From positions 23,618-87,617 of the forward strand of contig JACPOW010000011.1 in the NCBI GenBank assembly GCA_016191335.1: a stretch of DNA of 64,000 bases, in the 5' to 3' direction. This DNA comes from Elusimicrobiota bacterium (GTDB lineage Bacteria > Elusimicrobiota > Elusimicrobia > UBA1565 > UBA9628). The notes beneath the pieces are model-generated. The model was not told where the DNA came from and made no database searches. It was given only the letters and a program-made list of their open reading frames with translations. The first letter of the stretch is position 1. The number at the start of each line of letters is the position of its first letter. The position numbers and the translations under genes were made by a program. This document shows, piece by piece, positions 24,288-29,981 of this stretch.

Positions 24288-24380
24288 TTGGATAGGACTT
24301 TTGGCCCCCGGATGAAGGAGGACCAATGCCCCTGTAAAGTCCGTAGCGCCCGACCTACACTGAAACAGACGCACGCAGGA

Positions 24381-24447
24381 CCTGTGTAGCCTGGGGAATC
24401 GGCCTCGGGGTATCCACGATCCCGCCGAAACGGGATGAGACCACGGG
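24381..24447 (+). ncRNA. Variant purine-riboswitch-family aptamer (2'-dG-like core), copy 1
   Basis: P1 24381-24386/24442-24447; P2 24390-24396/24403-24409, L2 AATCGG; J2/3 GTATCCAC; P3 24419-24424/24431-24436, L3 CCGAAA. L2 TCGG can pair with L3 CCGA. Confidence 0.65.
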
Positions 24448-24478
24448 AAACGACTACAATCGTTTCCCGTTTTTTATT
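24443..24478 (+). terminator. Intrinsic terminator overlapping P1 3' strand of riboswitch copy 1
   Basis: ACGGGAAACGA-CTACAA-TCGTTTCCCGT followed by TTTTTATT. Confidence 0.85.
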
Positions 24479-24528: not shown

Positions 24529-25023
24529 ATGGTTCGCAGTAGCATGTCGGAGTTGGTTAGTTCTGAATCGTCCCCGTCCGGTCACGCCGCAGAATGGCAT
24601 AGGAGGCCTGTTGATAGGTCTGAGGCGCACCAGTTCAATCAGGTGCTCCAGCGCGCGGAGGCTCCGAGCGTGGCCGGTGTTGGCCGCAGCCAATGGAGTT
24701 ATCTATTGGCGCTGGTCTGCTCAGAGTACGCCTACTGCACGATGTACGGCGTCAACATCGTAGATGGAAACATCGTCTCTTGCGAGAACATCCAGCGCAG
24801 CCTGACGTTCGGCCCCGCATCGGCAGGCGGGGAGGCGGCGCCGACCTTCGATGAATATTGGGACGCCCTGCGAACCCTGTGCTTCCGTGTCCGCAACGGG
24901 CGATTAGCTGAGTTGCGGTTCAATCGCGGAAGGCCGATAAGCGCGAAAACGAGCGAAGGAGGCCGACGCTTCAAGCGGTTGGTGAAGGAGCGTGAGGCCG
25001 GTCCAGGTTCAACCGCCGCTTAG
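24529..25023 (+). CDS. Unknown 164-aa protein downstream of riboswitch copy 1
   Basis: In-frame ATG at 24529 with GGGAGG RBS, after the terminator; the 24484 start in the ORF track lies inside the post-terminator leader. Confidence 0.6.
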   Translation: MVRSSMSELVSSESSPSGHAAEWHRRPVDRSEAHQFNQVLQRAEAPSVAGVGRSQWSYLLALVCSEYAYCTMYGVNIVDGNIVSCENIQRSLTFGPASAGGEAAPTFDEYWDALRTLCFRVRNGRLAELRFNRGRPISAKTSEGGRRFKRLVKEREAGPGSTAA

Positions 25024-25069: not shown

Positions 25070-27106
25070 TCATGCGCTCCAGGGCGGCTCCTTGCCGACC
25101 ACGGCTCGGAGATGTTTGAGGCTTGTGAATTTCTCCGGGGGGTGCCCCGAGGCGAGATATATCTCGCTGAAACCCAGAGAGTGAATCCACAGCGACACCG
25201 CGGCTCCATCCAGACCGCCCGACAGGTTCACGTCCATGTAAATCGGCGTCCGCCTGTCGATCTCGCCGGACTCGCGCATGAAAGCCGCCGGGGAGGGGAA
25301 GGTGCGCAGCGTCTTCCCAAAATCGGAAGCCGCATTCTCCCATGTCATTCTGGTCAGGGGATCGTCGTCGATCAGGACGGCGTCAAGCCGCGGAGTCGCG
25401 GAGCCGTCGGCCGGAGCGGAGGCGACCACCCTGAGAGGGACCAGCAGCGCGGATTCTTTCGGGAGCATGCGGATTCCGAGCCGCTGGCATTCTTCCAGGA
25501 CTTTGACGTCGCCATGCCGTCCCGTGACCAATATCGCGCGCCTTTCAAGACCGAGTTCCGTGGCAAGGCTTAGGCCCGTCTCCGGGACGCCGGATAAATC
25601 GTGGTCCAGAAGAAACAGCGCGCGTGAAGCGTCGGCGGGGTGCTTCTTGGTCCAGTCTCGAAGATCCTGTGGCGTAAAAAAGCCGAGGACTTCGACGGCT
25701 TGCCCGTCGGAGCCCAGAGCTTGCAAACGGCTTCGCCAGACTTGGTGGATGCCTTCCTCGTCGTCGAGAATCACGACAACGCCGCCCCGAGCAGGAGCGA
25801 CCTCCGGAACGAACCAGCCCGGCGCGGACGCCGCCGGCAGAGCTAAAGTCACGGTCGTTCCTTCGCCGAATTCCGAGGCGATCTTCAATCGGCCGCCCCA
25901 GGACTCGGCGCTGGCTCGGGCGTGGTGAAGCCCCAAGCCCGAGCCGCCGGATTTGCCGAAGCTGACGCCGCGCTGACCGAGTTTCGCGAGCACATCCGGC
26001 GGAATGCCCTTGCCGTCGTCATTCACCGCGACGAGGATCTGGCCGTCCAACGCGGAAGCGGTCACGCGAACCGTGCCCGGACTCGCGCCCAGCGCTTCCA
26101 CGGCGTTGTTGATGAGGTTGGAGAGAACGCGCTTGAACTCCACGGGTTCGACCCGGACGAAGAGCCCGTAGGAGGCGGCGTCATCGGACGATTTGATGCC
26201 GATGACTGAGTCGGGTCCCAACGCCAAGCGCTTCTCGGAGATGATGGGCTCGATCAAGCTCGACAGCAATTGCGCGGAGGAATTCGGGCTATTCACGACG
26301 GGGTCGTTTTCTCTTCGGCGCCGATCGAGAAGGCCGTTGGCGATGTCCCGGATGCGGCCAAGGGCGCTTCGAATCTGAAGGCGCTTCTTCTCGGGCAACG
26401 CGGCCATGTCGCCTGTCGTGGCCTCTAGCGCGGTAAGCGGCGACCGGATGTCGTGCGCCACCTGCTCGGCGAGTTCCGCCCGGGCGCGGGTGTCGATCAG
26501 TTGGCGCTCCTGCGCTTGAGCCTGATCGAGGCGCAATCGGATGTCCCGCATATCCGCCATGATGCCGATGAGGTCGCGTCCGGAGTCGATCTCCACCCCG
26601 GATTTCCTCAGGAATTCGACGAGCGCCGCGGTCGTGCGGCGCTCGAGACGCCGAACGAAAATAAGGGAGAGGCCTGAGATCAGGATATAGACGAAAAGCA
26701 CCGCCAAGAGGGGAGTGGTCGAGAAACGGAACGGGCGGCATATCGTGACCCGTGCCTCGCTTGCCGCTCCGGCGCCACCGAGCGTGTAGGTCGCGTCGCT
26801 GCAGTGGCCGGAGGAGGAGAGCGTGCCGAACTGGTAGGCTTCATCGGCGATATTCAAGCGGACGTGGAGATCGGAGAACTCCCGGCCGACGCCTTCGACG
26901 AAATCCCGGAATCGGCGGTTCTTGATGTCCTCGAAGCGCGACTTGGTCAGGATGACGGCTTGGCTCGCGACGAGGCGCTGGTTGTCGGCCTGGGCCTGCC
27001 GATAGAGCGTATACCAGCTGCTGGCCGCCAGAGAGACGAACAGCGCGTTGAAAATGAGCCAGACGCGCAGCGGCGAGATGAGCGTCAGGCGAGAGGATGG
27101 GGCCAA
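25070..27106 (-). CDS. Membrane hybrid sensor histidine kinase with C-terminal receiver-like domains
   Basis: AEQVAHDIRSPLTALEATTGDM H-box; NDDGKGIPPDVLAKLGQRGVSFGKSGGSGLGLHHARASAESWGG; VVVILDDEE...LFLLDHDLSG; DAVLIDDDPLTRM. Confidence 0.88.
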   Translation of the reverse strand: MAPSSRLTLISPLRVWLIFNALFVSLAASSWYTLYRQAQADNQRLVASQAVILTKSRFEDIKNRRFRDFVEGVGREFSDLHVRLNIADEAYQFGTLSSSGHCSDATYTLGGAGAASEARVTICRPFRFSTTPLLAVLFVYILISGLSLIFVRRLERRTTAALVEFLRKSGVEIDSGRDLIGIMADMRDIRLRLDQAQAQERQLIDTRARAELAEQVAHDIRSPLTALEATTGDMAALPEKKRLQIRSALGRIRDIANGLLDRRRRENDPVVNSPNSSAQLLSSLIEPIISEKRLALGPDSVIGIKSSDDAASYGLFVRVEPVEFKRVLSNLINNAVEALGASPGTVRVTASALDGQILVAVNDDGKGIPPDVLAKLGQRGVSFGKSGGSGLGLHHARASAESWGGRLKIASEFGEGTTVTLALPAASAPGWFVPEVAPARGGVVVILDDEEGIHQVWRSRLQALGSDGQAVEVLGFFTPQDLRDWTKKHPADASRALFLLDHDLSGVPETGLSLATELGLERRAILVTGRHGDVKVLEECQRLGIRMLPKESALLVPLRVVASAPADGSATPRLDAVLIDDDPLTRMTWENAASDFGKTLRTFPSPAAFMRESGEIDRRTPIYMDVNLSGGLDGAAVSLWIHSLGFSEIYLASGHPPEKFTSLKHLRAVVGKEPPWSA

Positions 27107-28041
27107 GGATTGCCGCCCTCCTGAAGAGATTCTCGGCCCCAGCTGAGGACCGGCCAGCGCGGATTCTCGGCCGACGCGACGCAGGGGAACCCTTCGATGT
27201 CGACCAGGACGGCGGTCTCCGTGCCATCATAGCCGCCGAGCTCGATGCGCTCGGCCGGCGCGCCCGCCTCGTTCAAGAAATCGAAGGCGGCGAGGTTTGC
27301 CGGCTCCATGTAGAATTCTCTATGCGAGCGAGGAGAACCGCGCTCGGGGAGCGCCGCGTATGTGGCGGGCGATTGGTTCAGGACGAGGGCGGACCTAAGG
27401 AGCGAGCGAAGGACCTTGGTCTGGGCCTGACCCATAGCGACGCCCGCGCGCTGATAGACGCAGTCGAACAGCACTCCGCCGGATTTGCGGGTTCCCAGCC
27501 CGCAGATCACGTCTCCCAATTGTTTTTCTGACAGGCGAAACATCGCGATTTCCCACCCGAAGGCGTCGAGGGACGCGAGGAGAACGCGGTTCATGAGCCC
27601 GGTTGATCGGATCGGCACCCAACCCTTGCGGGCGTTCCACGCCGTCAGGTAGATCGCGCGCTCGATCAACTCGGCGCGCGCGGACGCTTCCGCCTCCTGC
27701 GGCGTCGCGCCGCAGGCGAAGCCGTTGCTGCTTCGCCGGGGCTTCCCGTCGCTGGTCGGCTCATCGCGCAGCAGGTCGAGCCACAGACGCTCCCAGGCCT
27801 CGGCGAAGGCCTGGGTGAGGGATTCCGTGTATAGCAGCCTGTCGCCGTAGCCGAAGGCCTCCCGGCCCATCCCGACGAGGCGGCACTCGACGACGGAGAT
27901 CGGAAGGAGCTTCGCGGGAACGGTGCGGATCGACCAGCTCAGCTTCTCCGCAAGGCCGGTCAGCGGGGACCTTATTTGCGCGGCGCCCTTGCGGATGAGG
28001 TTCAGGTCGAGGGACCAGCGGCTATTTCCACTGGACTTCAT
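27085..28041 (-). CDS. YcaO-domain protein
   Basis: SSNGFACGATPQEAEASARAELIERAIYLTAW (YcaO ATP-binding signature) and Pro-rich C-terminus NPWPHPLA. Overlaps both neighbours by about 20 nt. Confidence 0.8.
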   Translation of the reverse strand: MKSSGNSRWSLDLNLIRKGAAQIRSPLTGLAEKLSWSIRTVPAKLLPISVVECRLVGMGREAFGYGDRLLYTESLTQAFAEAWERLWLDLLRDEPTSDGKPRRSSNGFACGATPQEAEASARAELIERAIYLTAWNARKGWVPIRSTGLMNRVLLASLDAFGWEIAMFRLSEKQLGDVICGLGTRKSGGVLFDCVYQRAGVAMGQAQTKVLRSLLRSALVLNQSPATYAALPERGSPRSHREFYMEPANLAAFDFLNEAGAPAERIELGGYDGTETAVLVDIEGFPCVASAENPRWPVLSWGRESLQEGGNPWPHPLA

Positions 28042-29491
28042 AGAACCGGAGCCGCATATCGAAGGTATTGATACGGGAGAGGTCGACCCGCTTGCTGGCC
28101 GCGATGAGTCCAGGCTCGATGAACAGGGGCACGGCGTAGGCTTCCGTCAGGATGTGTTCGTGCAGCTCCCGAAGGCCGACCTCGCGGTTCGCTTTGCTGT
28201 CGGCGGCCATGATCTTGCCGAAGAGATGCTCGACTTCCGGGCGGTAATGCGTGAGGTCGCCGTGGCCGGGGGAGAACATGAACTGCCAACTCCCCATCGC
28301 GTCGCTCTGGTTGCCTGTGAATTGGGACATCTGCACGTCCGAGTCATCTCCCGAGGGTCTGCGCTCGGAGGCGAAGTGGAAGTCGAGGGTGGCACCGGCA
28401 CGGGAGAAGCCGGACGCGAGGGCTTCTCGGATCGGCGCGCCGTCGGAGAACGACGGAAGGAGGTTCACCTTGAGTCTTTTCCCCTTGAGCCGGCCGGAGG
28501 GGTTGCCCTTCGCGATGTCCCGGCCGTTCAGGCGTCCCGAGTAGCCCTCGGGAATCAACTGGCGCTCGCGCTTGAGGTCGGAGTATGCGAATCCCTCCAG
28601 CGAATCCTCGACGGCGAGAAGGAAATCGCGCCGTGCCTGAGCGTCGCGCCAGAACGGCTTCGCCGGGTTGAAGTGAAAATAGTAGATCCACGTCGGGTAG
28701 CCCTTTAGAACCTGGGGCGCCTTGCTTAGGATCTTCGGGTTGGCGCCTCGGAAAGTGGGAATGGGCACCTTTAGGAGGTCGATATCCACGGTATCGAAGA
28801 AGTCCCCGATCGTGTCCAGCGTGAAGGGAACGAGTTCCACTTGCTCCGGATAGTCGGTCGGCTCAGAGTGGTGTTCGTTTTTCCGCAAGACGAGCCGCTT
28901 GCCGGGTTCGTAGGCTTCGACTGAATACGGTCCGGAGGTGACGCTCCACCCTTTCGTGAGGTTGTCGGGATGGAGCAAGGCCGCGTCGGCAAGCCCCAAC
29001 TCGTGGATAAGCCCGTCGTTCGTCGGCGCGGAGAAGTCGAGGATGACGTCGTTTGCCTGGATCGTCGCGCTTCGGAGATTCTTGAGGTAGACGATATGAC
29101 GGTGCTTGTCTCGCGCCAACGACTCGAGGTGCGCCGCAATCATGCCTGGCTCTATCGGGTTGCCGTCGCTCCACGCCGCTCCCGGCCGTAAGTGGAAAAT
29201 CCAGCGCGTCGGCGACGGATGCTCCCATGACTGCGCGAGGCCGGGCGCGTAGCCCGAGGGCGATTGGCTGGAGTCCCGGACGAGGCCGACCGCCAGATTC
29301 TCGAGAAGATAGTAGTGGTAGACGAGTTCCGTGTTGTTGGGGTCGAGGATCCTTTGGTCCTGCCGCAAGACATACAGCGGGAAACCGACTCGGAGCGTCT
29401 TTGGACGTGTCATGATGAACCAGGAGTAAACCAAAATCGCCCCCAAGGCCGCGAACGCGAAAAGGGCGGTTCGATGTTTCTGTGCGTTCAT
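28022..29491 (-). CDS. Membrane-anchored family 5 extracellular solute (peptide)-binding protein
   Basis: Hydrophobic N-terminus, then NLAVGLVRD...YAPGLAQSWEHPSPTRWIFHLRPGAAWSDGNPI...TSGPYSVEAYEPGKRLVLRKNE. Start ambiguous between 29533 and 29491. Confidence 0.8.
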   Translation of the reverse strand: MNAQKHRTALFAFAALGAILVYSWFIMTRPKTLRVGFPLYVLRQDQRILDPNNTELVYHYYLLENLAVGLVRDSSQSPSGYAPGLAQSWEHPSPTRWIFHLRPGAAWSDGNPIEPGMIAAHLESLARDKHRHIVYLKNLRSATIQANDVILDFSAPTNDGLIHELGLADAALLHPDNLTKGWSVTSGPYSVEAYEPGKRLVLRKNEHHSEPTDYPEQVELVPFTLDTIGDFFDTVDIDLLKVPIPTFRGANPKILSKAPQVLKGYPTWIYYFHFNPAKPFWRDAQARRDFLLAVEDSLEGFAYSDLKRERQLIPEGYSGRLNGRDIAKGNPSGRLKGKRLKVNLLPSFSDGAPIREALASGFSRAGATLDFHFASERRPSGDDSDVQMSQFTGNQSDAMGSWQFMFSPGHGDLTHYRPEVEHLFGKIMAADSKANREVGLRELHEHILTEAYAVPLFIEPGLIAASKRVDLSRINTFDMRLRFYEVQWK

Positions 29492-29587: not shown

Positions 29588-29731
29588 TTAGAGGTCCCTG
29601 CAGTTGGAATCGGTGCCGGCAACGGAGACGCCGACCGAGGCCTTGGTGTAAACCAGGGCGGAAAGGGACGCCACGAGGGAGAACGCGCCCAGGATATAGC
29701 CGACGATGAGGAACGGGACCTTTTTGTTCAT
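29588..29731 (-). CDS. 47-aa small peptide MNKKVPFLIVGYILGAFSLVASLSALVYTKASVGVSVAGTDSNCRDL; candidate YcaO substrate or small membrane peptide
   Basis: Manual translation. GGAGG about 11 nt upstream of ATG; lies between riboswitch copy 2 and an attenuator hairpin; below the ORF-track cutoff. Confidence 0.65.
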   Translation of the reverse strand: MNKKVPFLIVGYILGAFSLVASLSALVYTKASVGVSVAGTDSNCRDL

Positions 29732-29782: not shown

Positions 29783-29828
29783 AAAATAAAAAGCCAGAGG
29801 CCTGGCTTAATGCATGCCAAGCCTCTGG
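29783..29828 (-). terminator. Intrinsic terminator overlapping P1 3' strand of riboswitch copy 2
   Basis: Minus strand CCAGAGGCTTGGC-atgcattaa-GCCAGGCCTCTGG (13 bp) followed by CTTTTTATTTT. Confidence 0.85.
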
Positions 29829-29887
29829 TTTCATCCGATTTCGGTCGGATCGTGGATACCCCGGGGCCAATCCCCCGGATTACAGAG
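29823..29887 (-). ncRNA. Variant purine-riboswitch-family aptamer (2'-dG-like core), copy 2
   Basis: Minus strand CTCTG-TA-ATCCGGGG-GATTGG-CCCCGG-GGTATCCAC-GATCCGA-CCGAAA-TCGGAT-GAAAC-CAGAG. Same J2/3 and L3 as copy 1 with different stem sequences. Confidence 0.65.
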
Positions 29888-29981
29888 TCGCCATCACGGC
29901 GATAAAACAGTTTAGCCGGGGAGGTCGTTTCGGACGAGGGCCTATTGGCCTATCCGTGAATAGGCCCTGCTCCCTGGCCGG

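Follow-up and report, generated by a model that had tools for sequence, protein, structure and literature searches.

What does the structured leader at the start of a small, domainless gene of an Elusimicrobiota bacterium recognize, and why would such a gene be placed under its control? The window analysed here, a stretch of 64,000 nucleotides from contig JACPOW010000011.1, contains this leader, which a preliminary description had taken for a variant purine-type riboswitch with features of the 2'-deoxyguanosine (2'-dG) class.

The aptamer, its terminator and its promoter

A cmscan comparison of the whole window with Rfam identifies the element, where the preliminary description had placed it, as a 2dG-II match (RF03165) at 24379–24449 on the forward strand, with a score of 74.6 bits (E=2.3e-17) and thus well above the gathering score of 60 bits. 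This aptamer, copy 1, is 71 nt long and aligns with the model end to end without insertions or deletions. The alignment bears out the purine-type three-way junction described earlier, with its J1/2 UA, J2/3 GUAUCCAC, GG in L2 and CC in L3, as well as the 2'-dG-type C51 equivalent, at 24415. The equivalents of C78 and of the G21–C79 pair, the junction-proximal pair of P1, are also found. The longer J3/1 (by two nucleotides) and the 6-nt loops, which had been read as deviations, belong to the published 2'-dG-II class, and the term "variant" is therefore dropped. On the strength of this alignment, copy 1 is a genuine 2'-dG-II riboswitch of known kind and not a new aptamer type; by analogy with the characterised class, its ligand would be 2'-dG. 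A second copy, absent from the preliminary description, lies on the reverse strand and matches more strongly (81.9 bits by cmscan; gathering score 60). Matches in the window to the structured sRNAs sroE, sodF and raiA-hairpin scored below threshold and were rejected. The elements of the two leaders are as follows (helices and C51 equivalent from the RF03165 alignment).

24319–24361, forward: promoter of copy 1, with box AGGACCAATGCCCCT (24319–24333), a 22-nt spacer and a −10-like TACACT (24356–24361); genome scan, zero mismatches
24379–24449, forward: 2'-dG-II aptamer, copy 1
24381–24386/24442–24447, forward: P1 of copy 1
24390–24396/24403–24409, forward: P2 of copy 1
24419–24424/24431–24436, forward: P3 of copy 1
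24415, forward: C51 equivalent of copy 1
24443–24478, forward: intrinsic terminator of copy 1, arms 24443–24453 and 24460–24470 followed by a U-run; the 5' arm shares five nucleotides (ACGGG) with the P1 3' strand
29794–29828, reverse: terminator hairpin of copy 2, its 5' arm overlapping the P1 3' strand (folding)
29820–29890, reverse: 2'-dG-II aptamer, copy 2 (RF03165)
29909–29951, reverse: promoter of copy 2, with box AGGCCAATAGGCCCT and a −10-like TAAACT; genome scan, one mismatch

The homologues retain the same architecture. Among 113 distinct gapless aptamers, for which TGTA, TCCAC and CCA were selection criteria and are excluded as evidence of conservation, the pairs of P2 and P3 and the inner five pairs of P1 are standard in 110–113, with many compensatory, two-sided changes, and L2 GG/L3 CC is kept in 112. 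Failure of the homologues to preserve the stems and the L2–L3 pairing was what the preliminary description had named as a test of its proposal, together with the covariance-model search; both outcomes favour it. The genome that contains the window carries seven copies, each of which scores above the curated cut-off, and 15 of the 19 genomes of the genus have matches. In Elusimicrobiota as a whole, matches occur in 101 of 345 genomes (about 30%; 92 above cut-off), with as many as nine per genome. Matches are found in 12 of 399 Bacteroidota genomes (two above cut-off) and in none of 125 Cloacimonadota genomes; none of 14 control genomes scores above cut-off. No aptamer matching a strict pattern and no relative of the regulated protein were detected in viral contigs, and there is therefore no evidence of a phage origin. 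At one peptide/radical SAM locus (L230, G166:C62) the P1 5' strand and P2 are missing, with P3 and the terminator retained; this is apparently a decayed riboswitch that lost its 5' half.

As had been described, the P1 3' strand of copy 1 (24442–24447) overlaps the 5' arm of the terminator (24443–24453), and the computed foldings agree. The ligand-free minimum-energy structure (−41.3 kcal/mol) includes an 11-bp terminator, of which merely a 6-bp remnant hairpin forms when P1 is enforced (−31.6 kcal/mol). In these calculations P1 and the terminator are mutually exclusive, which supports the proposed logic in which ligand would turn expression ON. All seven copies of the genome have a hairpin and U-run downstream, with the 5' arm of the hairpin re-using the P1 3' strand, and 102 of 110 high-scoring copies likewise show an overlap of terminator 5' arm and P1 3' strand (median stem 12 bp); the roughly 110 copies with downstream sequence are the top of a score-ranked list, to which such proportions apply. 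A few of the terminator calls are loose: L073 and L124 are counted, yet by eye resemble SD-sequestering leaders, and SD sequestration is probable in both. In four of the eight leaders without a terminator (L099, L140, L143 and L150) the SD region contains CGGAGGTGGAT, the exact complement of the J2/3–P3 core. Here the unbound aptamer core could mask the SD and the bound core could not, a putative direct-sequestration design for a translational ON switch. Since the two designs both imply that ligand switches expression ON, this is the direction to be expected in vivo.

Most 2dG-II leaders of the phylum share an inverted-repeat box (consensus TAGGYCCAAWGGCCCTT) at a fixed distance of 21 nt from a TANACT −10. 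In 87 of 108 leaders, box and −10 together reach a score of 12 or more, as against 3 of 108 shuffled sequences and 3 of 103 downstream controls. The combination box–N22–TANACT occurs 29 times in the genome of the window, compared with six times for a reversed control, and in 20 of these 29 matches a start codon follows just 6–11 nt past the −10; the genes are mostly those of exported proteins. Judging from these arrangements, the riboswitch appears to have been inserted between a widespread promoter for exported proteins and its gene, and the promoter-like element probably points to a common regulator or sigma factor. Many of the genome-wide matches (L257–L285) precede apparently leaderless genes for PLD-like, M28 peptidase, ChaN-like, TPR and other proteins.

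The regulated genes

The gene behind copy 1 encodes T165. The preliminary description had called it unknown and not recognisable as purine metabolism. The second point is borne out, and the first stands insofar as T165 has no match in Pfam, NCBIfam or PADLOC and a search of solved structures gave nothing usable (a single-sequence AlphaFold model, with pLDDT 39, was also unusable); its context, however, ties it to a system of peptide, maturase, solute-binding protein (SBP) and kinase. The genes between the two riboswitches are:

24529–25023, forward: T165, the regulated gene, 164 aa, no known domain, GGGAGG ahead of the ATG; a family of 12 loci
25070–27106, reverse: gene at the end of the opposing operon, encoding a histidine kinase (HATPase_c 6e-22) whose C-terminal domains are receiver-like (Response_reg below cut-off)
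27085–28041, reverse: YcaO-type protein, candidate peptide maturase (PF02624, 7e-8, above cut-off)
28022–29491, reverse: family-5 extracellular solute-binding protein (SBP_bac_5) of peptide-binding type (1e-21)
29588–29731, reverse: 47-aa peptide with a hydrophobic N-terminal stretch, candidate precursor; a similar peptide occurs in genome G010

The opposing operon is compact, since the YcaO gene overlaps both of its neighbours. Its histidine kinase gene is a conserved partner across related loci, and the peptide of G010 that resembles the 47-aa peptide (E=8e-4) is encoded between T165 and the SBP gene. The T165 family comprises 12 substantial loci in the phylum (one, G002:C37, split into two frames), nine with a 2dG-II aptamer directly upstream and three without an adjacent aptamer. 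In G010 and G235, T165 heads a single riboswitch operon with a small peptide, SBP_bac_5, a YcaO or radical SAM maturase and a kinase; in the window, G007 and G001 the corresponding set is divided into two convergent riboswitch units. T165 is therefore read as a putative component of a peptide maturation and sensing system.

Parts of such systems (peptide, maturase, SBP or kinase genes) are found at 38 of 109 riboswitch loci: maturase genes at 31, peptide genes at 28, SBP genes at 32 and kinase genes at 29, with the full set of peptide, radical SAM, SBP and kinase at twelve. Other first genes encode nine exported metallo-beta-lactamase (MBL)-fold proteins that match the ComEC C-terminus, four DSP-type phosphatases and one phospholipase D. 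An N-terminal hydrophobic stretch is present in the first or longest ORF in 90 of 107 cases. Of the Bacteroidota copies inspected, L286 lies ahead of the gene for an exported endonuclease I, and the protein start at L287 is very similar; L288 lies ahead of an exported endonuclease/exonuclease/phosphatase-type protein, and L289 has a similar start. The predicted theme of the regulon is thus one of exported proteins, several of which may act on DNA, under a DNA-derived nucleoside. A role in defence was considered and rejected, as the weak viperin and Avs1a scores of the radical SAM and MBL proteins reflect superfamily similarity; where NCBIfam states a specific cut-off (180 and 420 bits), they fall far short of it.

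Separately, the copies at L010 (G000:C10:3661-3731) and L153 (G216:C12) precede genes for sigma-like/helix-turn-helix, replication-relaxation-like, membrane ATPase-like and tyrosine recombinase proteins, which looks like an integrative element under predicted 2'-dG control.

Proposed mechanism and alternatives

We consider it probable that copy 1 is a transcriptional ON riboswitch of the 2'-dG-II class and that T165 belongs to a 2'-dG-induced system for peptide maturation and sensing. Without ligand, the nascent leader would fold the 11-bp terminator and transcription would stop. Binding of 2'-dG would hold P1 together at the cost of five mostly G–C terminator pairs, and RNA polymerase would enter T165. 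Copy 2, 5.4 kb away and facing copy 1, would likewise control the opposing operon, whose genes encode the small peptide, the peptide-binding protein, the YcaO maturase and the kinase. What other genomes combine in a single riboswitch operon would here be divided between the two units. Intracellular 2'-dG, perhaps derived from degraded DNA, would then turn on a programme of exported peptides. Several observations speak against this reading: the ligand of the class was assigned with other RNAs, three of the 12 T165 loci have no aptamer next to them, a profile search for the peptide gave ten additional loci, L230 among them, with an aptamer at only three, and G219 and G231 have aptamer and T165 but no partner genes nearby. 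A wider proposal, which we offer tentatively and regard as somewhat less probable than its negation, is a phylum-wide Elusimicrobiota programme in which a nucleoside from degraded DNA (of lysed neighbours, prey or phage-hit cells) induces exported nucleases together with a new class of riboswitch-controlled modified-peptide systems, equipped with a binding protein and a kinase of their own; T165 would be a new part dedicated to these systems.

The peptides are presumed to be modified and exported. Peptide and maturase genes adjoin at 25 of 109 loci, the gene-level arrangement of a RiPP, and in the main peptide family the N-terminal 40 residues are conserved (MTNKDKIIAAFLVSLGLFS..QA.QYVSSLS) whereas the tail is variable. 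Such a combination of conserved leader and variable tail is typical of RiPP precursors. Radical SAM and YcaO proteins, moreover, alternate beside different peptide types. These features argue against the possibility that the small peptides escape modification and are simply exported or membrane peptides, with the maturase-like proteins doing something else. That reading is unlikely but survives best of the alternatives: the hydrophobic N-terminus resembles a signal peptide, and the radical SAM and YcaO scores fall under the specific curated cut-offs (for the adjacent radical SAM, YydG is the best NCBIfam model, with E=4e-16 and 59 bits against an equivalog cut-off of 300).

A second alternative retains the aptamer class and the ON mechanism and changes the ligand. 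Both window copies have A rather than U at position 75, and in copy 1 the two-nucleotide J3/1 insertion is of a covarying sub-type with G24 and A75. In the crystallised 2'-dG-II RNA, U75 of the insertion contacts A24, and U75A lowers the affinity for 2'-dG 46-fold in the RNA studied (PMC8872408), which counts against 2'-dG. Positions 24 and 75 (aptamer positions 11 and 60) are A/U, G/A or G/C among the 113 copies, the last two combinations in 39; the covariation follows family lines, and shared ancestry may explain it. The G24/A75 sub-type might thus sense guanosine, a dG nucleotide or another nucleoside, and a guanine-riboswitch variant is known that binds 2'-dG and guanosine alike (PMC9295807). 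We judge this improbable, since every other pocket position, including the C51, C78 and G21–C79 equivalents, is as in the class, and both sub-types occur in the same genomes and before the same types of genes.

Less probable still is a chance arrangement, in which T165 has nothing to do with the peptide operon and the two riboswitch units just happen to lie side by side in the window. T165 lacks a known domain, and G219 and G231 have an aptamer and T165 with none of the partner genes detected nearby; against this, G010 and G235 join all the parts in one operon, and the kinase gene adjoins T165 in G000, G001, G007, G002 (C37 and C181) and G211. Finally, an ordinary guanine riboswitch (Purine, RF00167) with an unrelated target shares the three-way junction and clan but is very improbable, because the best score is for 2dG-II, far above threshold, C51 in place of U51, the G–C rather than A–U top pair of P1 and the J3/1 insertion are foreign to guanine riboswitches, and Bacillus copies reach the 2dG-II model only below cut-off.

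Relation to known systems

The preferred reading, a 2'-dG-responsive ON switch for peptide systems, places a known aptamer in an apparently new setting. Two papers, Weinberg et al. 2017 and Matyjasik and Batey 2019 (cited in PMC9295807 and PMC8872408), defined the 2'-dG-II class; its marks are extra J3/1 nucleotides and a G–C pair topping P1 (G21–C79), with Watson–Crick pairing of C51 and C78 to the ligand, and the phylum named is Bacteroidetes/Bacteroidota (PMC8872408). The window element shares its sequence and structure end to end, including C51, the G–C top of P1, the J3/1 insertion and the kissing loops. Copy 1 differs by A75 and G24 and by its Elusimicrobiota host. The few, mixed targets in the accessible literature leave the role of the class obscure, and the peptide-maturation systems that predominate among Elusimicrobiota targets are not among them; a search of open-access literature found no prior report of an Elusimicrobiota 2'-dG-II regulon. 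The pattern in this phylum, with about 30% of genomes, up to nine copies, ON logic and exported or peptide targets, suggests a testable role in sensing DNA turnover, and it singles out a putative family of signalling systems based on modified peptides, with predicted direct control by a nucleoside.

The 2'-dG-I riboswitch of Mesoplasma florum resembles the window element in ligand type and in the C at the 51 equivalent, but its loops and P1 pair are distinct, and its ligand terminates transcription (PMC11251524), whereas the architecture of the window element implies ON. In this respect the closer likeness is to pbuE-type adenine riboswitches, where a ligand-stabilised P1 likewise competes with a terminator that uses the P1 3' strand, though ligand and pocket differ. 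YydF/YydG epipeptide and YcaO-type RiPP clusters also place a short peptide gene, conserved at its N-terminus and variable in its tail, beside a radical SAM or YcaO gene. The Elusimicrobiota loci differ in their family-5 SBP and kinase partners, in riboswitch control, in a radical SAM protein far below the YydG cut-off and in a peptide with a signal-peptide-like stretch. The aptamer is thus of a known kind, and the new part is apparently the combination of ON logic with a regulon of peptide systems.
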